IMG/VR virus record: IMGVR_UViG_3300025769_000798
Location: 1 to 24,747 of that record
Reading direction: 5' to 3' (one strand)
Source of the DNA: a virus
DNA length: 24,747 bases
Shown: in pieces, positions 10,841 through 24,373 of the stretch
How the letters are laid out: each line of letters opens with the position of its first letter
Numbering within the stretch: the stretch's first letter is position 1
The notes under the pieces: model-generated
What the model saw: the letters and a program-made list of their open reading frames with translations, nothing else
Database searches by the model: none
Told to the model about the DNA's origin: nothing
Made by a program: the position numbers and the translations under genes

Positions 10841-11410
10841 CTATGCCTTCTTTGCTTGATTGATTAAATCGTCTGCGAGCACATCGACAAGCTCATCTCC
10901 GGCTTTCCTCATCGGAGTCCAGAGAAGTTCATTGCTTGTCCTTGTACCATATGCAAGATCGTTCAGTGTATACTGTCCTGTCTTGATTGCCCAAGCATAT
11001 GGAGCTGTATTGCGCACGAAGGCAACAAGATCAGGACCGTCGATCATGACTCCTCTCTCTAGCTTGTTTTTTGAGTCTTGACTCTTGTCCGAGATCTTTG
11101 CTTGCGAAGCATCGCCAGGAACAAACCTGCCGCGCTCCTCCATGTCTTTGGCTATTGCGTACGCCTGAGATCCTGTCTTCCCTTCTCTGCGTAGTCTGGC
11201 AACCTCTGACATCATGAGCGATCTCTCGCTCTTTGGAGGATCGACTCTGACAGGCCATTCTCTATACGCTTCTTGATATATCTCTTCGACTGCGTCCTGC
11301 ATTGTACGCTTGATGATTGGATTCGCATCAAGAAGCTGGTTCACAAGTCTCTCCAGCTCGTCAGAGACTCCGACCGCTGCGTTCCCGTGTTTGTAAAATA
11401 CTCGGCTCAT
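10841..11410 (-). CDS. HK97 gp10-like tail completion protein candidate
   Basis: The product (189 aa) contains VAFVRNTAPYAWAIKTGQ (near residues 128-145), which resembles the conserved 'NxxPYaxxvexG' core of HK97 gp10-like proteins. These proteins finish the tail or join it to the head. The N-terminal half is helical (ELERLVNQLLDANPIIKRTM), and a basic hinge follows. The start overlaps the chaperone frame as ATGA. Its place between the chaperones and the tape measure is unusual, because gp10-like genes normally come before the tail tube gene. Family placement is therefore tentative. Confidence 0.5.
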   Translation of the reverse strand: MSRVFYKHGNAAVGVSDELERLVNQLLDANPIIKRTMQDAVEEIYQEAYREWPVRVDPPKSERSLMMSEVARLRREGKTGSQAYAIAKDMEERGRFVPGDASQAKISDKSQDSKNKLERGVMIDGPDLVAFVRNTAPYAWAIKTGQYTLNDLAYGTRTSNELLWTPMRKAGDELVDVLADDLINQAKKA

Positions 11411-11688
11411 GTCATGCGCTCCTTGATTCGTCTTGCTTGCTGTATATTATACTTCTTTTTTCGCTCATCTCTGTCTTTTTGTGACTCATGCTCAAGAATA
11501 TAATCAGCAATCAAATCTGTTTGTGTCTGCGCTGGCAAGTTGCGAAACCATCCCGGAGGCTGCCCCCAAAAACGACACAATCGAAGAGCTAGTCTGTCGA
11601 GATGTCCTGCTCTGCTGTAGAGGAAAAATTTGCTCTTTCGTCGACCTCTGCCTCTGTCGGGATCTTTGCTGACATGAAGGAGAGACAT
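11407..11688 (-). CDS. Tail assembly chaperone, frameshift extension (gpGT-like)
   Basis: This frame is in -1 register to the preceding chaperone gene and overlaps its end by 100 nt. The part after the slippery site reads FFLYSRAGHLDRLALRLCRF, then WGQPPGWFRNLP, then a helical charged tail (LIADYILEHESQKDRDERKK). This is like the C-terminal extension of siphovirus chaperones, which recruits tail tube protein to the tape measure. Slippage at 11631-11625 would make a 186-residue fusion: 114 residues from the first frame plus 72 from this one. The ATG at 11688 has only a weak AAGG upstream, so independent expression is less likely. It overlaps the next gene by 4 nt. Confidence 0.75.
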   Translation of the reverse strand: MSLLHVSKDPDRGRGRRKSKFFLYSRAGHLDRLALRLCRFWGQPPGWFRNLPAQTQTDLIADYILEHESQKDRDERKKKYNIQQARRIKERMT

Positions 11689-11966
11689 TTGATGCCTTCT
11701 TCATAGATCACCGATGCCGTCACTCCTTGTCCAAGAAGACGATCAAGGCACATATGACCATAGTCAGAAGCACGATGCTTAATCGGGCGATATTTGGGTA
11801 GTCGAGAAGTGTGATCAATGCATACTCCGATCGAGCCTGCACAAAGACGAGCGAGCATTGCATTGTCTGTCTCAGCAGACCATAAGCTCACAAATTCGAA
11901 ACAGGTTGCAAGACTCGGAGAAGAGAGCTCAATCTCTCCCCCGAGCTTCTTGATGTTGATTTTCAT
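11589..11966 (-). CDS. Tail assembly chaperone (gpG-like)
   Basis: The product (125 aa, MKINIKKLGGEIELSSPS...) lies directly between the tail tube gene and the tape measure module, the fixed place of tail chaperones. Its C-terminal stretch MSAKIPTEAEVDERANFSS resembles the linker where gpG proteins frameshift. The start at 11966 is fixed by AGGAGACTACA directly before ATG. A longer ORF reaching 12200 would run back into the tail tube gene and was rejected. Expression of this short form, plus a minority of the gpGT-like fusion through the AAATTTT site, is the expected pattern. Sequence similarity to gpG itself is not obvious, so the call rests on position, overlap and the slippery site. Confidence 0.75.
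   Translation of the reverse strand: MKINIKKLGGEIELSSPSLATCFEFVSLWSAETDNAMLARLCAGSIGVCIDHTSRLPKYRPIKHRASDYGHMCLDRLLGQGVTASVIYEEGIKCLSFMSAKIPTEAEVDERANFSSTAEQDISTD
11625..11631 (-). promoter_or_regulatory. Programmed -1 frameshift slippery heptamer AAATTTT
   Basis: On the minus strand the first chaperone frame reads GCA AAT TTT TCC. A_AAT_TTT is an exact X_XXY_YYZ heptamer, placed 36 nt before that gene's stop and within its overlap with the second frame. After a -1 slip the codons become TTC CTC TAC, entering the gpT-like frame. A short hairpin (CTCT-ACAGC-AGAG) starts two bases downstream and is only four pairs long, so a stronger stimulator is not obvious. Confidence 0.75.
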
Positions 11967-11985
11967 TGTAGTCTCCTGATTATGT

Positions 11986-14034: not shown

Positions 14035-14174
14035 TATTGACTCCTTTTCTTGTTGTCTGCTCGCGTCAAGTGTTTGACCACCATCTGACGAGCTTGAGTG
14101 TGTGAGATGTTAGATTGCTGTGCTACCTTCTGAGCCATGCGATCGATCGCTGCTCTCTTGTTACTATCGGACAT
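14034..14174 (-). CDS. 46-residue basic helical protein
   Basis: This very short gene starts at ATG (14174), with GGAG six bases upstream, inside the last codons of the preceding gene. It ends TAA at 14036-14034, sharing one base with the next ATG. The product reads MSDSNKRAAIDRMAQKVAQQ, then SNISHTQARQMVVKHLTRAD, ending NKKRSQ. The two short helices with A-x-x-V-A and T-x-x-Q-A spacing recall the N-terminus of HU/IHF proteins, but there is no beta arm, so this is only a likeness. The gene fills an otherwise unexplained gap exactly, with both junctions coupled. Confidence 0.65.
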   Translation of the reverse strand: MSDSNKRAAIDRMAQKVAQQSNISHTQARQMVVKHLTRADNKKRSQ

Positions 14175-14823
14175 TATATGCTCCAGCTCCGAGATCTTCG
14201 ACTCGCTTGATTGCCTTCTTTGTCAAGTCAAGCTCTGCCTTCTTTGACTTGAGTCTGTTTGCGACTTCGGGGATATGTTGATCTCTTTCTAGACGAGACA
14301 TTGCTCTGTTCATGCTGATCAGTCGCAGAGCTGCGATTTGTGGATGTGGAGGATTGAGTGCTCCTTCTCGCATGAGAGAAAGTCTCCACTGATCAAAAGC
14401 GTCCTGATCAAAGTGCTCGATGACTCGTCTCCCGACCTTCTCTAGACGTATCCACTTCGATGTGTGGTAGTTGCCTTTGTGCGCAGGATATACTCGCATA
14501 TAGTCATGCTTGACGGGATCAAGCAGAGTCCATCCTTGATCCTGCATGTGTGTTCTCATGATTGAGCTGTCGATACGTCCTCCGACTGCTCTTGTACCAT
14601 TGACTCCGGGAGTCTCAGATACACTAGACAGCACAGGAAGGAGAAGCGGGATCTGCTGCTTCTTCTTCTTTCCGTCTGTCGTTGTTGTGTATGTGTCGAA
14701 CACTTTGAGCTCCCAGTTCTCGGGATTGTGTGCAAACAAGAATCGGCTGTTTGCTTTCTTTGGGATACGCGTTTGTGTTTGCGTCTTCTCTTCCCAAGGT
14801 TGTGAATAGTTTGTGTAGTCCAT
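14164..14823 (-). CDS. Conserved-looking phage protein of unknown function
   Basis: The product (219 aa) starts MDYTNYSQPWEEKTQTQTRI and holds a globular part (SRFLFAHNPENWELKVFDTY; MRTHMQDQGWTLLDPVKHDY) followed by a helical, charged C-terminus (NRLKSKKAELDLTKKAIKRV). The ATG at 14823 is preceded by TTGGAGACTACA; an in-frame TTG at 14835 lies in that site and was not used. This is the first gene after the major capsid gene, and its ribosome binding site is exactly complementary to a 12-nt element 29 bases upstream, so its translation may be controlled by RNA structure. I do not recognise the family. A head maturation or completion role is inferred only from position. Confidence 0.6.
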   Translation of the reverse strand: MDYTNYSQPWEEKTQTQTRIPKKANSRFLFAHNPENWELKVFDTYTTTTDGKKKKQQIPLLLPVLSSVSETPGVNGTRAVGGRIDSSIMRTHMQDQGWTLLDPVKHDYMRVYPAHKGNYHTSKWIRLEKVGRRVIEHFDQDAFDQWRLSLMREGALNPPHPQIAALRLISMNRAMSRLERDQHIPEVANRLKSKKAELDLTKKAIKRVEDLGAGAYNVR

Positions 14824-14875
14824 TGTAGTCTCCAATAAAAAAGAGTTGGGAGACTCGCAGAATTTGGAGACTACA
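14824..14875 (-). promoter_or_regulatory. 12-nt element complementary to the downstream ribosome binding site
   Basis: On the minus strand TGTAGTCTCCAA (14875-14864) is the exact complement of TTGGAGACTACA (14835-14824), which holds the Shine-Dalgarno sequence directly before the ATG at 14823. Pairing would hide the start of the next gene. The first element also pairs imperfectly with the 5' arm of the terminator stem, giving mutually exclusive structures. Confidence 0.55.
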
Positions 14876-14901
14876 GAAATTAAATCCTGAAGTCTCCCAA
14901 C
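14837..14901 (-). terminator. Terminator-like hairpin after the major capsid gene
   Basis: On the minus strand GTTGGGAGACT (14901-14891) pairs perfectly with AGTCTCCCAAC (14855-14845), an 11-bp stem with a 35-nt loop. The stem is followed after two bases by six T (14842-14837). It begins after the capsid stop codon. The large loop is unusual for an intrinsic terminator and contains another complementary element, so termination may be conditional. Confidence 0.6.
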
Positions 14902-14915
14902 AAAACGAGTCTAGT

Positions 14916-15866
14916 CTAGCGTGCAGAGAGCAGCTTGACTCCGCGAGCGTCTTCGATGATGCCGAGTCCAAGATATGCGTGACCTACAATAAAGGTACTT
15001 GCACTCATTGGACGACGATCAAACTCGACTACAACCTTACCCATAGACATGAGATCAGCTGAGCCTTGAACGCCTGCGGGAATACCATCGACATATCCGA
15101 GAGCCATCGGAGAGATCATGTAATTATCGAAACCAGAAGAGCCATTTTCTTTAACATACTTGCTACGATATACATCTACACCGAACAAGTTACCAGCGAA
15201 GTTCTCGCCTTTTGCTTGTAGCATGTCCATAGAGGATTGCATGCGGCTAATGGCGTTTCCTGTCTCGTTGCGGAGAGAGTCTTGAAGCTCGGTCAATGCC
15301 TTTGGATCAAGTACACAAGCGTAAGGACCAGGAGCACCAGAGCCGGAGTCTGCTTGCTCAAGAGCAAAGATCGCGTCAAAGAAATCGTCTACACTGAGAG
15401 TAGTTGTGTTGCTTCCTGCTGTAGTTGTGAAAGAAGCAGCAGCCTCTCCTGTGAGCTCAGCAAAACGAGCCTCATAACTTCCTGCAATGCTTTGTGCGAT
15501 ACGGAAAGGATCAATGTCTGCTCCTCCGAATCCAGTCATAGAGGCAAGATCTGACATCTCGTAGATGATGTACTGACGAGCAGCAACGAGATCGGCAGAG
15601 TTGATAGTCAATGCTGTTGTGTTTGCAGCTTCGTCTGAGATTTCAGAACCAGCAGCAGCCATTGAATCATAACCATCAAGACCAGCAAGACGGACACGTA
15701 CTGTATCTGTGCCGAGGCCATTGATTGAGCCTTGGTAGCTGAGGAGAGGAGTGTTTCTTAGGTTTGCGTTATCTTTTAAGAGGAGATTTATTTCCTGAGA
15801 GATCATTGCAGATAATCTTAGGATGTTTTCCATATTGGAAAAACGAATCGGATCGACTGTAGCCAT
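14916..15866 (-). CDS. Major capsid protein (HK97-type fold likely)
   Basis: The product (316 aa) starts MATVDPIRFSNMENILRLSA. It has capsid-like features: a helical N-arm, an Ala/Gly-rich core (DSMAAAGSEISDEAANTTAL), a P-domain-like helix region (DPKALTELQDSLRNETGNAI), NLFGVDVYRSKYV and a closing GHAYLGLGIIEDARGVKLLS. The ATG at 15866 has GGAGG five bases before it; an in-frame ATG at 15878 is less favoured. It has its own promoter candidate upstream and a terminator-like hairpin downstream, suggesting it can be transcribed as a separate high-dose unit. A scaffold-like protein is encoded upstream. The fold assignment is from overall likeness; no crosslinking residues were looked for. Confidence 0.82.
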   Translation of the reverse strand: MATVDPIRFSNMENILRLSAMISQEINLLLKDNANLRNTPLLSYQGSINGLGTDTVRVRLAGLDGYDSMAAAGSEISDEAANTTALTINSADLVAARQYIIYEMSDLASMTGFGGADIDPFRIAQSIAGSYEARFAELTGEAAASFTTTAGSNTTTLSVDDFFDAIFALEQADSGSGAPGPYACVLDPKALTELQDSLRNETGNAISRMQSSMDMLQAKGENFAGNLFGVDVYRSKYVKENGSSGFDNYMISPMALGYVDGIPAGVQGSADLMSMGKVVVEFDRRPMSASTFIVGHAYLGLGIIEDARGVKLLSAR

Positions 15867-15960
15867 TGCGGCCTCCATTCATTAGGGGTTATAGTTTTAG
15901 AGTGCTTTGGGCTCTTCTGCTGTTACCGGCGCGACCGTACCCTGCTGTATTATCATTCCT

Positions 15961-16623: not shown

Positions 16624-16652
16624 AAAAAAAGCCCGGTCACATCGGACCGGGC
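16624..16652 (-). terminator. Strong rho-independent terminator after the fibre gene
   Basis: On the minus strand GCCCGGTC (16652-16645) pairs with GACCGGGC (16638-16631), a perfect 8-bp GC-rich stem with a 6-nt loop, followed by seven T (16630-16624). It sits 22 bp after the stop of the decapeptide-repeat gene and closes the terminase-portal-scaffold-fibre unit. Confidence 0.9.
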
Positions 16653-16674
16653 CCACAGTACGAAACTTTAATCT

Positions 16675-18405
16675 CTAGTGATAATACCAGATGATGAGTC
16701 CGTCACCATTTGACAATGCAGCGCCGAAAGTCAAACGAGCAACGCCACCAGAGCCACCGTTCGCAGATACAGAGAATTCATCTTCGTCTGCTGCGGTATC
16801 ACCGAGAGCTGTCATGTTGCGAAGAGACAGACCATTCTTGAACACGAGAACAGAGTTCAATGCACCAGATGGCAGAGTCTGAGCGAGATCGATTGTAGTA
16901 GTAGAACCGCCGGAGATCTGCGCTCCTTCTTGTTTGAAGGTGATACCGAGCTTTGCAGCAGTCACAGAAGAGTCTGCGAGCTTGGCACTGGTCACACCAG
17001 AGTCAGCAAGAGCAGTCGTTCCAACAGCACCGGACGCGATCTTTGCAGATGTCACAGCAGCAGCTGCAATCTTAGCGGAGGATACAGAAGAGTCTGCGAG
17101 CTTGGCAGATGATACTGCTCCGTCTACGATCTCAGCAGTGTCGACTGCGTTGTCAGCCATCTTTGCATTTGTCACAGCGTCATCAGCGAGCTTCCCTGTG
17201 TCGATTGCAGTTGACGCGATCTTCGCTGTGGTCACAGCTCCGTCAGCAATCTTTGCAGTCGCTACAGCATTGTCAGCGAGCTTTGCTTCGAGTACAGAAG
17301 AAGAAGCAAGAGCAGCAGATCCTACAGATCCGTCGATGAGCTCATTTGCTCCTACAGAGTCGTCAGCCATCTTTGCATTTGAGATTGCATTGTCTGCGAT
17401 CTTTGCGCTTGTTACGTTTGCGTCGACAATCTTTGCAGAAGTAACAGCTCCGTCAGCAAGTTTTGCAGTCGATACTCCTCCGTCTGAGATGGATATGTCG
17501 TCGCCCTGCTTCTCCAAACCGCCTGATACGGTTACGGAGCCTAATCCGGTGAATCTTTGGAACTGGATTGCAGTTGTGCCGAGATTCGGTGCTGAATCAT
17601 TGATACAAACAAAACCCTGATTATCATAGGTATTACCTTCGAGAGCGAACAGGAACGCGCCCGGGAAATCATCCCCCTCGTCCATATCTGTAGAACGAGA
17701 CATAGCATTCCCAGAGCCTGCATAGACATAAACTCCGTTGTCCTCTTCGTCGTCCTGATCGATACAGAGGATTCTGTCCGAATTAGAAAGATTCACTCCG
17801 TCGATGCTTGCAGGAGCTTGTGAAAGATCAATGTTTGATCCAGCTACAACGCGAACGTTTTCCTTTACAGACAATCCAGCAGCAACAGAGTCGACATAGC
17901 TCTTATTGGCTGCGTCGTTTGAGTTGCTTGGCGTGCCAACTTGAAGAGTCCCGCTTGTATAATCATATGTGTCGGTCAAGTCGATCTTGCTTGCGTCTAC
18001 AGCATCGGCAGCGATCTTCGCAGATGTTACTGCGGAGTCGTTGATCTTTGCGGTTTCTACAGCAGAGCTTGCGAGCTTGGCAGCAGATACAGCAGAGTCT
18101 GCGAGCTTGGCAGTCTGTACAGATGCTGCTCCGAGTTTTGCAGCTTCGACTGCTCCGTCTGCGAGTTTTGCAGTCAATACTGCGCCGTCTGCGAGCTTGG
18201 CAGATTCTACAGATGCTGATCCGAGCTTGGCAGCTGTGACTGCTCCGTCATTGAGTGCAGCTGTCAAGACTGCGGAAGAACCGAGCTTTCCTGATGTGAT
18301 TGCTCCGTCTGAGATTTTTGCTGATGTGACAGCATTGCTTGCGAGTTTGGCGGCAATAATAGCCGAGTCGACTATCTGACCGCCTTTAATTTGAACTGAT
18401 CCCAT
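16675..18405 (-). CDS. Decapeptide-repeat fibre protein, probable head fibre
   Basis: The product (576 aa) has a symmetric plan. About 12 ten-residue repeats of the type AKLADGAVTS occupy residues 19-138. A central domain spans 139-313 (SYVDSVAAGLSVKENVRVVA; SDRILCIDQDDEEDNGVYVY; LGTTAIQFQRF), of a kind common in phage tail fibres. About 17 more repeats follow (314-490), then a C-terminal domain ending SNGDGLIIWYYH. Ten-residue A-K-[IL]-x-[DS]-x-A-V repeats are known from phage fibres, where trimers wind into rod-like helices. The position in the head module (between portal/scaffold and capsid, not in the tail-tip region) favours a head fibre; this is inference. TAGGAGTATCTCAC precedes the ATG, and a strong terminator follows the gene. 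Confidence 0.8.
   Translation of the reverse strand: MGSVQIKGGQIVDSAIIAAKLASNAVTSAKISDGAITSGKLGSSAVLTAALNDGAVTAAKLGSASVESAKLADGAVLTAKLADGAVEAAKLGAASVQTAKLADSAVSAAKLASSAVETAKINDSAVTSAKIAADAVDASKIDLTDTYDYTSGTLQVGTPSNSNDAANKSYVDSVAAGLSVKENVRVVAGSNIDLSQAPASIDGVNLSNSDRILCIDQDDEEDNGVYVYAGSGNAMSRSTDMDEGDDFPGAFLFALEGNTYDNQGFVCINDSAPNLGTTAIQFQRFTGLGSVTVSGGLEKQGDDISISDGGVSTAKLADGAVTSAKIVDANVTSAKIADNAISNAKMADDSVGANELIDGSVGSAALASSSVLEAKLADNAVATAKIADGAVTTAKIASTAIDTGKLADDAVTNAKMADNAVDTAEIVDGAVSSAKLADSSVSSAKIAAAAVTSAKIASGAVGTTALADSGVTSAKLADSSVTAAKLGITFKQEGAQISGGSTTTIDLAQTLPSGALNSVLVFKNGLSLRNMTALGDTAADEDEFSVSANGGSGGVARLTFGAALSNGDGLIIWYYH
16935..17466 (-). repeat. Second block of 30-bp coding repeats in the fibre gene
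   Basis: About 17 degenerate 30-bp units encode the AKLADGAVTS-type decapeptide. Units vary in synonymous and some coding positions, so the protein pattern is better kept than the DNA. Confidence 0.85.
17991..18351 (-). repeat. First block of 30-bp coding repeats in the fibre gene
   Basis: About 12 degenerate 30-bp units encode the same decapeptide type as the later block. Together the two blocks flank a unique central domain, and similarity between them could allow recombination that changes fibre length. Confidence 0.85.
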
Positions 18406-18443: not shown

Positions 18444-18458
18444 TTTCTGTAGTCTCCA
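18444..18458 (-). repeat. Dispersed TGGAGACTACAGAAA element without a following start codon
   Basis: On the minus strand TGGAGACTACAGAAA occurs in the gap between two head genes (gap 18406-18463). The same 15 bases occur in the opposite orientation at 14865-14879. The shorter GGAGACTACA precedes the ATG of three genes (starts 19723, 14823 and 11966). Here no ATG follows, and the real ribosome binding site of the fibre gene is a separate TAGGAG nearer its start. Confidence 0.6.
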
Positions 18459-18740: not shown

Positions 18741-19052
18741 TCAAAGCTCCTCAAGCACGATCGAAATCTCTGCATTGCCCGACTTTGATGCAACGAAGAT
18801 TGACTCGGGCCTGTTCTTTCCTCGTCCAAGTCTCAGCACAATATAATTACTCTGTGGTACTGTCATTTTATGAGTCGGTACAGCTCCTCCGTCTGTGGCT
18901 CCATTACGACAGACATATATTTCTTTCCCCTGCGCTCCGAGACTGATCTGTGTAGCCGGAGAAGGGAGAAGGATCTCTGTTGTTGTTGTATCTCCTGCCG
19001 TAAAGTTATAGAATGCAGGATATACGTTTAGACTTCGCAGATCTTCGCTCAT
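18741..19052 (-). CDS. Small structural protein candidate
   Basis: The product (103 aa) starts MSEDLRSLNVYPAFYNFTAG and is beta-rich (TEILLPSPATQISLGAQGKE; NYIVLRLGRGKNRPESIFVA; AEISIVLEEL) with no membrane segment. It follows the scaffold-like gene with a 4-nt overlap and uses the site GGAGACAGTC. Position suggests a capsid decoration protein or fibre base. I do not recognise the family. Confidence 0.55.
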   Translation of the reverse strand: MSEDLRSLNVYPAFYNFTAGDTTTTEILLPSPATQISLGAQGKEIYVCRNGATDGGAVPTHKMTVPQSNYIVLRLGRGKNRPESIFVASKSGNAEISIVLEEL

Positions 19053-19723
19053 GACTGTCTCCGGTTGCGATTCTTCCAGGCTTGCATGACTTTGTCTCGA
19101 TTGGCAGCATAGAACTCGGGATCTTTCAAAGCGCGATCAAGAAAGCCAGGAGAGTCAGGAGCAGGGATTGCTCCGACGTTTGTGCGCGGAGCTGCTGCCT
19201 GTTGTGGTTCAAGTGATTCTCCGAGCTCCTGGAGCTGTGCAGCTGTCGATGCTTCAGGAAGATCTCCTGCTGTGTCTGCATTGTCTTCTCCGATCATCTT
19301 CAGAGCCTGGAGATGTGGACGGATCGTGATCGGTGCTGATTCTGGGTTCTCTACTTGCTGATCAAGCCAATCTGATAGAGTCTGTCGCTCTTTGTCGCTC
19401 TTGCCTTTTTGCGCGCGTTCAAAGGACCATTCTATCGCTTCGACGAGATCGGGATCTGTCAATCCGTGCTTGCTGATTGATTGGTATCGCTCGAATCTTT
19501 GCTCTGAGCTCTGGAGTCTCGTCTGCATTTCTGTCAGCTGCTGATTGAGAATGTCGACTGATGACATTGCCTTCTCTGCTTTCGCAAGTCTGCTCTGTGC
19601 TTCTTCAAGTGCTTTCTCGGCTGTGGTTGCTCTCGTTGCAACCTTGCCGATTCTCTCTTTGATGATGTTCTCCATCTCGGATTTAAGGACATAAGTGCGT
19701 CCTTCGTTTTCTATCTCTGTCAT
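19049..19723 (-). CDS. Scaffold-like capsid assembly protein
   Basis: The product (224 aa) is acidic and mostly coiled coil in its first half (KALEEAQSRLAKAEKAMSSV; LNQQLTEMQTRLQSSEQRFE). It then has a disordered Pro/Ala/Gln region (PQQAAAPRTNVGAIPAPDSP) and a short basic C-terminal helix (NRDKVMQAWKNRNRR). That layout, with a basic tail that could touch the capsid protein, is typical of phage scaffolds. It lies directly after the portal gene. Start: ATG after AGGAGACTACA. No protease domain is visible and none was found next to it, so how the scaffold leaves the head is not shown by this window. Confidence 0.7.
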   Translation of the reverse strand: MTEIENEGRTYVLKSEMENIIKERIGKVATRATTAEKALEEAQSRLAKAEKAMSSVDILNQQLTEMQTRLQSSEQRFERYQSISKHGLTDPDLVEAIEWSFERAQKGKSDKERQTLSDWLDQQVENPESAPITIRPHLQALKMIGEDNADTAGDLPEASTAAQLQELGESLEPQQAAAPRTNVGAIPAPDSPGFLDRALKDPEFYAANRDKVMQAWKNRNRRQS

Positions 19724-19740
19724 TGTAGTCTCCTATGAGG

Positions 19741-23293: not shown

Positions 23294-24373
23294 TCATGCT
23301 CCAAAAAGAGAGAGTTGTCGATCATTGTGATCATTGAAGTATATATTCTCTCTGTGTTTGTGTATTCTGACTTTTGAATGCTCAAAATAGTCTGTATTCT
23401 TCTCTATGCCTATGAAATTACGTTTTAGATTTTTGCACGCTATCCCGGTAGAGCCCGAACCCATAAAAATATCAAGAACAGTATCATTTTCTTTCGATGA
23501 ATGAAGAAGTATATTTTCTAATAAAGGGATAGGCTTCGGAGTTAAATGTTTTTCTTTTGGTGCAAAGTCATAGCACCAGACGTTATTATTCCATTTCTGA
23601 TCATGAAAGTTTTTCGTGTCTACTAATTGAGGCTCAAAAGTATATCTCTGAGCTTCGTATTCTTTCCGAAGAGCTTCGTATTCTTTCCGAAGAGCTTCGT
23701 ATTCTTTCCGGAGATCTTCGTATTCTTTCCGAATAAATTCGCTTTTCAAAGGTATTGTATCGAGTTCTTTGTATGTTTCTTTTGTGGGTAGTTCCCACTG
23801 TGATGAATTCCATCTAAAACAGTGATCGGCTCTCTGATGTCCTAATGTTTCATGTATTTGTTTTTTGTTCAATCCGAGAGCTGTTTGATACTCTTTGAAG
23901 TAAGTTCTCAAAGATTGAAAATTCGTTATATCATGCTTGACTTTCTTAAGGCCTGATTCATCTTGAAATGTATAAAACAGTATATATTCAGTGAAACCAT
24001 TATAGTAATTTCTTGACTGTGAGGTGCTAAGCCTCCTCTTTGCGAATCCTAAACTTTTCATATTTTCAAAATACTTATTCCATGTAATGAATTGCTTAAA
24101 TACAAATTTTGTATTCTTTTCTATCCAATCCATTATTTTGATAATTTGCATCATATCATTATGGAACCAATAAAAAGAGCCATTATCTTTTAGCACTCTT
24201 TCGACTTGCTTAATCCATTGACCGCACCAAGAAACATATTCTTCTTGAGTGCTCCATTTATCCCAAGTATCCTTTTTTATATTATATGGAGGATCTGTCA
24301 GAACTAGATCAATACTGTTTGATTCGATCTCTCGCATAGCCTCAAGACAGTCTTGATTATAGAGTTGTATCAT
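23294..24373 (-). CDS. DNA amino-methyltransferase (N6-adenine or N4-cytosine), beta class
   Basis: The product (359 aa) transfers methyl groups from S-adenosylmethionine to an exocyclic amino group in DNA. The catalytic motif IV DPPY (27-30) comes before the cofactor motif FMGSGSTG (303-310), the beta-class order. Between them lies a target-recognition region with a four-fold seven-residue repeat RKEYEAL (about 214-241) that likely forms a helical coiled coil. The gene looks clearly more AT-rich than its neighbours, a sign of separate acquisition. ATG at 24373 follows AAGG, two bases after the previous stop. With the cytosine methyltransferase it gives the phage two modification activities. 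DPPY does not by itself separate N6-adenine from N4-cytosine. Confidence 0.92.
   Translation of the reverse strand: MIQLYNQDCLEAMREIESNSIDLVLTDPPYNIKKDTWDKWSTQEEYVSWCGQWIKQVERVLKDNGSFYWFHNDMMQIIKIMDWIEKNTKFVFKQFITWNKYFENMKSLGFAKRRLSTSQSRNYYNGFTEYILFYTFQDESGLKKVKHDITNFQSLRTYFKEYQTALGLNKKQIHETLGHQRADHCFRWNSSQWELPTKETYKELDTIPLKSEFIRKEYEDLRKEYEALRKEYEALRKEYEAQRYTFEPQLVDTKNFHDQKWNNNVWCYDFAPKEKHLTPKPIPLLENILLHSSKENDTVLDIFMGSGSTGIACKNLKRNFIGIEKNTDYFEHSKVRIHKHRENIYFNDHNDRQLSLFGA
23651..23734 (-). repeat. Four 21-bp tandem repeats in the amino-methyltransferase gene
   Basis: Four consecutive 21-bp units on the plus strand begin AGCTTCGTATTCTTTCCG (23651, 23672, 23693 and, with one change, 23714). The first two are identical over 21 bp. 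Read on the minus strand they encode the heptad RKEYEAL or RKEYEDL. Copy-number change would keep the reading frame. Confidence 0.93.

Follow-up and report, generated by a model that had tools for sequence, protein, structure and literature searches.

What does the RNA between the capsid gene of this virus and the gene that follows it do, and does it act on that gene only? In the window (the whole 24,747-nt stretch of viral DNA analysed here) this 92-nt intergenic region had been read, in an earlier note, as an attenuator-like switch made of four complementary elements on the minus strand. All four were found with the coordinates, sequences and order given for them; a fifth element, E0, lies next to them, and further partners of E2 lie at other assembly genes, well away from the region which that note described. 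On the comparisons presented below, we consider it probable that the capsid 3′ UTR provides an antisense RNA that represses assembly genes and that, in the window's own lineage, works as a switch, a reading drawn from sequence comparison. The locus is laid out as follows.

15878..14916, minus strand: major capsid gene, an ORF of 320 aa, with its stop codon at 14916–14918.
14905–14912, minus strand: E0, AGACTCGT, 3 nt past the capsid stop codon; its partner is the 5′ part of E3.
14882–14901, minus strand: E1, with core GTTGGGAGACT at 14891–14901; its partner is E3 or E2.
14864–14879, minus strand: E2, the anti-RBS word TTTCTGTAGTCTCCAA with core GTAGTCTCC, located in the E1:E3 hairpin loop; its segment TGTAGTCTCCAA at 14864–14875 pairs perfectly with E4.
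14845–14865, minus strand: E3, with core AGTCTCCCAAC at 14845–14855; its partner is E1 (20 bp) or E0.
14837–14844, minus strand: U-run TCTTTTTT (TC plus T6) after the E1:E3 stem, intrinsic-terminator-like.
14824–14835, minus strand: E4, TTGGAGACTACA, the RBS and spacer of the post-capsid gene and the complement of E2.
14164–14823, minus strand: post-capsid gene, 219 aa, ATG at 14821–14823; by position a putative head-completion or connector gene.

The perfect pairing of E1 with E3 (11 bp) and of E2 with E4 (12 bp) is as previously described, and the E1:E3 helix extends from its 11-bp perfect core to 20 bp with one bulge. The intergenic region thereby holds three perfect inverted 11-mers (one from E1:E3 and two from E2:E4), while any such 11-mer appeared in only 1 of 2000 dinucleotide shuffles of the 92 nt; the fold of 131 nt has z = −3.8, and an equally good one was seen in none of 200 shuffles. 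The claim that E1:E3 and E2:E4 exclude each other fails on topology: with the elements in the order 1-2-3-4, the two helices can form together as an H-type pseudoknot. The pairings that do exclude each other are E1:E2 against E1:E3, E2:E4 against E1:E2, and either E3:E4 or E0:E3 against E1:E3.

Searches of IMG/VR with the capsid yielded 67 related loci, and 61 capsid 3′ ends were examined, namely that of the window and those of 60 of the loci (L004, L059, L064 and L068 are truncated, and L065–L067 are treated apart). Absence of the complementary pairs from related phages, which the earlier note had named as evidence against a switch, was looked for; the whole element is present in 59 of the 61 ends, the other two being cut by the contig end, and these represent 37 unique sequences. 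E1:E3, E1:E2, E2:E4 and E0:E3 can all form in each of the 37. The 9-nt core of E2:E4 is complementary in 36, and in L054 its first 6 nt only. A scan for the exact words found 57 viral contigs with one site each, all of them also recovered through the capsid or post-capsid gene searches; it also matched two bacterial or archaeal contigs, which we judged to be chance or local repeats and rejected as instances outside the window family.

Compensatory changes are found in both helices formed by E1. On an alignment of the unique sequences other than L038 and L052 (35 of 37), 97.2% of E1:E3 cells are paired, against at most 63% when the arms are slid, and cells with a double change number 26, against 6.9 in shuffles; for E1:E2, counted with one position omitted that is unpaired in the window, 97.7% of cells are paired and the double-change cells number 12 against 2.2. 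The number of pairs showing any double change is unexceptional, being reached by 32 of 500 shuffles for E1:E3 and by 273 of 500 for E1:E2. E2 and E3 present different letters to a shared E1 base in 70 cells; the base can pair with both letters in 40 of these and with just one of them in 30, and there is no cell in which it pairs with neither. Double pairing relies on a U in E1 that accepts G and A, or on a G that accepts U and C. Selection acting on two alternative helices would produce this pattern. Covariation in E1:E3 as well as in E1:E2 supports a bistable RNA. Counted from the first base of the capsid stop codon, E0 starts 1–6 nt further on; 6–8 of its 8 register positions are paired with E3 in 37/37, with up to five pair types per position. 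Because the E0 register was set for maximal pairing in each sequence, and because mean pairing (of 8) is 7.68 with the own E3 against 6.22 with the E3 types of other members and 5.82 with a shuffled 5′ end, E0:E3 is supported, but less strictly than the other helices.

Predicted energies are consistent with a switch that a ribosome could throw. For isolated RNA without E4, folded from the stop codon to the U-run, the state combining E0:E3 with E1:E2 is more stable than the E1:E3 hairpin in 34/37 sequences, with a mean advantage of 2.9 kcal/mol over all 37. With the first 13 nt masked, in imitation of a ribosome at the stop codon (fewer where E1 starts sooner), E1:E3 is favoured in 37/37 by a mean of 6.9 kcal/mol; the terminator fold is thus obtained in all sequences with E0 masked, against 3/37 unmasked, for a mask of the length assumed for a ribosome footprint. 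The shape of an intrinsic terminator, a GC-rich hairpin followed by a U-run, is seen in the window and in 33/37 family sequences (T-run of at least 5 after the stem; the longest run is 3–4 in L044, L053, L055 and L057). The window family has what marks an attenuator, namely two mutually exclusive, covarying helices of which one has the shape of a terminator. To this extent the switch that had been proposed stands for the window's own lineage, albeit with states other than those named.

It does not stand as the general design. Profile searches with the capsid alignment reached distant phages with capsids 33–41% identical to that of the window where measured, and a second alignment brought in more. 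Their capsid 3′ UTRs are unrelated in sequence and share one plan, in which a long stem encloses an antisense word directed at the RBS of the next gene. Of 80 loci, 69 were used for the cis word (duplicates and truncated ends were left out); L282 has no next start, L308 and L325 have short UTRs, and merging identical UTRs left 56 unique ones, among which 39 have a cis anti-RBS word better than shuffles at p≤0.05 and 24 at p≤0.01. Ten of the 56 hold no word of at least 8 nt, and the other 46 loci were carried into further tests. The words targeted in distant phages include GGAGAGCACC, AGAGAGAGAGC, GGAGGACAC, CCCAAGGAAGGA, CCAGGGAGCA, GGAGAACAGC and GCACGATG. In the 46 loci E1:E3 is significant (z<−2) in 44, E1:E2 in 25 and E0:E3 in 6, and a T-run of at least 5 lies between E2 and the RBS in 6 (a count based on stem ends also gave 6/46, although it misplaces some of them). 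With T-runs of 3–4 in four close relatives and no run of 5 in 40/46 distant loci, termination is not the conserved core; a terminator as the general core, and E0 as a general feature, are both ruled out. The U-run and E0 appear to be mostly features of the window's lineage, and the conserved feature is E2 as an anti-RBS word. By words, L065–L067 had seemed to lack the element, but by architecture L066 and L067 carry it; the record of L065 (again L224 and L313) has a word of 6 nt only. In the cultured relatives HTVC112P and DSL-LC06 we found no word comparable to E2, and no cultured phage with the element was found.

E2 is complementary not only to E4 but to the RBSs of two further genes of the window, one upstream of the capsid gene, in the position of a scaffold gene, and one behind the presumed major tail protein (the post-tail gene).

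19725–19733, minus strand: GGAGACTAC, RBS of the scaffold-position gene (19049–19723), complementary to E2.
11968–11976, minus strand: GGAGACTAC, RBS of the post-tail gene (11589–11966), complementary to E2.

Within the window family, counting only orthologues below 97% identity and with starts placed automatically, this 9-mer lies ahead of the post-capsid gene in 24/25 unique upstreams and of the scaffold-position gene in only 10/18, and it is found in none of 260 upstreams of 17 other genes. Among 22 unique upstreams of post-tail orthologues 21 also have it, as do 4/4 upstreams of a left-end gene that reads like a small terminase subunit. The phage of L054 (also L100), with its differing E2, lacks GGAGACTAC at all three RBSs checked. 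Over whole contigs (summed over 26), the own E2 matches 52 non-cis starts by at least 9 nt, compared with 3.2 for foreign E2s; shuffles give p≤0.05 in 18/26, and 5/26 have no trans start match of 9 nt.

The same holds where the words are different. Across the 46 distant loci, non-cis starts matched by at least 9 nt number 47 with the own E2, spread over 31 loci, as against 3.45 with foreign and 3.48 with shuffled E2s, and at 8 nt the figures are 74, 10.4 and 14.0. Of those 74 starts, 38 fall in bins about 1.5–2.2 kb upstream (the gene before the capsid gene), 30 about 2.3–4.5 kb downstream and 6 elsewhere. The best non-cis start, with ties included, belongs to the scaffold or post-tail class alone in 45/46 loci (in L296 it ties with another gene), these two classes making up 118 of 426 starts; the best trans match is of only 6–7 nt in 4/46. 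Counted by start, with ties broken by position, matches to the own E2 of at least 8 nt occur at 36/43 scaffold-class, 29/75 post-tail-class, 0/37 capsid and 6/271 other starts, the post-tail class being a broad one that takes in neighbouring genes; by locus they occur in 36/42 and 27/35 for the first two classes. The arms serve as a control, E1 arms matching 3/426 starts and E3 arms 0/426. Choosing E2 as the longest match to the cis RBS favours anti-SD words, a bias that the foreign-E2 control addresses, and since the loci are related these counts are not independent. The mark of an antisense RNA acting on RBSs was found, in that the target RBSs change along with E2 and stay complementary to it; comparison shows that E2 and its predicted target RBSs have co-evolved. 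The best trans match exceeds the cis word in length in 22/46 loci (16 against 12 nt in L288; 14 against 10 in L303, at an ORF cut by the contig end), which would fit a need for trans targets to make up for distance.

We suggest the following mechanism. The long E1:E3 hairpin would present E2 as an antisense word (its matches span 8–16 nt), which could pair in cis, as a pseudoknot, with the RBS of the next gene, and also with the RBSs of the scaffold-position gene upstream and of the post-tail gene, these last being reached on other transcripts or far off on the same one. Such pairing would lower translation of assembly proteins relative to capsid. In the window's lineage the ‘on’ state would combine E0:E3 with E1:E2, with E2 hidden, no terminator and the RBSs free; in the ‘off’ state E1:E3 with its U-run may allow transcription to end and would expose E2, and a ribosome at the end of capsid translation would sit over E0 and so favour ‘off’. 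Comparison establishes the helices and the E2–RBS co-evolution; we infer the repression, the choice between trans and long-range cis pairing, the termination and the sensing of a terminating ribosome.

The same observations can be accounted for in other ways. An ordinary capsid-gene terminator with chance complementarity would explain the stem and U-run, but it is contradicted by the shuffle tests and by covariation and is scarcely tenable. A purely local cis attenuator, in which, as the earlier note had it, termination or RBS occlusion separates capsid from downstream genes, and in which the other matches are by-products of a shared RBS word, draws strength from the joint presence of E0, E1:E2, E1:E3 and the U-run in most of the window's lineage. 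We nevertheless think it unlikely: few distant loci have the T-run or a significant E0:E3 (6/46 each), the matches elsewhere gather in two gene classes and are nearly absent from capsid and other starts, and the trans match exceeds the cis word in almost half of the loci and may, as in L288, include flank letters that the cis RBS does not have. A phage RNA-binding protein that reads the shared RBS word, E2 being only the local complement of that word, would account for the same 9–10-nt word at several RBSs; given that the word is wholly different between lineages while complementarity to E2 is kept, and that trans sites may match E2 flanks absent from the cis RBS, we regard this as more improbable still.

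A more serious alternative, to which we nonetheless assign well under even odds, is that the same pairings represent long-range folding of one polycistronic late mRNA, possibly circularizing it, with no separate trans-acting RNA. The scaffold-position, post-capsid and post-tail RBSs, together with a further E2 complement, site S (below), all lie on the capsid strand in the window, with about 3.6 kb from S to E2. In the phage of L223, however, some matching RBSs lie opposite the capsid strand, and if these are targets, trans action is needed.

Returning to a capsid-borne antisense RNA, its likeness to known systems is partial. Ribosome-mediated attenuation of the trp type involves alternative hairpins, a terminator and, next to a stop codon, an element that a ribosome can cover, and the window resembles it in its alternative hairpins, its terminator-like stem and the placing of E0; here the sensor would be the capsid gene, with no leader peptide, and the arrangement is not general in relatives. 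Bacterial mRNA 3′ ends give rise to regulatory sRNAs, and the putative RNA described here would likewise come from an mRNA 3′ end, although it is phage-encoded, aimed at the phage's own assembly genes and known from sequence alone. In the icaR mRNA of Staphylococcus aureus the 3′-UTR motif UCCCCUG pairs with the Shine–Dalgarno region and hinders translation initiation (PMC3868564), so that in both cases a 3′-UTR word pairs with an RBS. There icaR targets its own RBS (PMC3868564), whereas none of 37 capsid-class starts has a complement of at least 8 nt to its own E2 and three other genes are matched instead; the E2 word also co-evolves over many lineages and is part of a bistable RNA in the window's lineage. 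The c4 antisense RNA of phages P1 and P7 has complementary words, probably in loops, that act around the RBS of the ant mRNA (PMC12197685), and is likewise a phage RNA with loop words acting around an RBS; c4, listed as RF01695 (PMC2864571), controls antirepressor synthesis (PMC12197685), whereas here the RNA is a capsid 3′ UTR and its predicted targets are morphogenesis genes. These two are the nearest precedents found, and neither is described, in the portions of the sources drawn on, as a capsid-borne regulator of three targets (PMC3868564, PMC12197685). The Rfam 15 families, c4 included, gave no match at the gathering threshold in the window or in 12 distant loci, and searches of open-licence PMC papers showed no report of such a capsid 3′-UTR antisense element.

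From genes that lie side by side, phages make capsid subunits by the hundred but scaffold, connector and tail-assembly proteins in much smaller numbers, a difference usually credited to promoters, RBS strength and frameshifting. We tentatively propose, as an extension less likely than the reading above, that across a broad lineage of tailed phages a multi-target antisense RNA in the capsid 3′ UTR may sense capsid translation (in the window's branch, through a ribosome at the stop codon that frees the loop) and then shut down translation of scaffold, head-completion and tail-assembly proteins together, so setting the stoichiometry of virion parts. If true, this would be an RNA-level stoichiometry controller, one capsid-borne antisense RNA keeping the output of assembly genes in step with capsid, and others could be sought as capsid 3′-UTR words antisense to other RBSs of the same phage.

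The names used for the genes rest mainly on gene order. The capsid gene can be linked to annotated major capsid proteins only by way of the similarity of its distant relatives L065 and L066 to these, and INPHARED gave no direct match. The post-capsid, scaffold-position and post-tail proteins tested gave no family above the Pfam cut-off and none in PHROGs, except for one unnamed hit, to the scaffold-position protein of L288. In BFVD, the AF2 model of the post-capsid protein (pLDDT 87) matches a single entry at E≤0.001, which is an unnamed protein of a marine virus. The scaffold label comes from position, a Phage_scaffold match below the Pfam cut-off and the annotated gene order of DSL-LC06, and mainly from gene order, as does the identity of the post-tail gene. 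Post-tail proteins align across the family with 14–40% identity to that of the window, and the gene follows an ORF of 163–167 aa in 4 of 5 loci examined. A model of the post-tail protein (pLDDT 86) matched nothing in the PDB at E≤0.001, and two rows stood at Z 2; the BFVD hits with E>0.4 include two tail-assembly-chaperone entries; ‘chaperone’ is therefore a position label only, there being no significant fold match. In the window (11407–11966) the post-tail gene overlaps the next ORF, of 93 aa, by 100 nt in another frame, and overlap in another frame is the pattern of G/GT tail-chaperone frameshift pairs.

The longest complement of E2 in the window, and often across its family, is not an RBS.

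18444–18458, minus strand: site S, 15 nt perfectly complementary to E2, within the leader of the gene for a 576-aa repeat protein (16675–18405).

Over 27 unique pairs, S matches its own E2 by a mean of 12.1 nt and the E2s of other members by 9.8, with 5.1 for shuffled S; the own E2 ranks first, ties included, in 18/27, L252, L167, L173 and L257 being clear exceptions. In many relatives S is followed by a short palindrome (ACACGTGT, AAACATGTTT, AAAATGCATTTT). S may act as a decoy for E2, or it may be one more target. Two distant phages, L217 and L219, carry an S-like, non-RBS match, AACAGGGAAAAC, about 0.77 kb past E2 (L234 minus strand 9191; L219 4699). The phage of L223 has, opposite the capsid strand, several small ORFs whose RBSs match E2 by 10–11 nt (L226 minus strand ~119–990; L227 minus strand 3041). 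Elsewhere in the window, a strong terminator-like hairpin with a T-run lies between the repeat-protein gene and a DUF5824 gene (16629–16654, minus strand), and the structural genes are flanked by two ORFs (209–1057 and 23294–24373) whose translations read as DNA methyltransferase-like, from motifs that we take to be those of methyltransferases.
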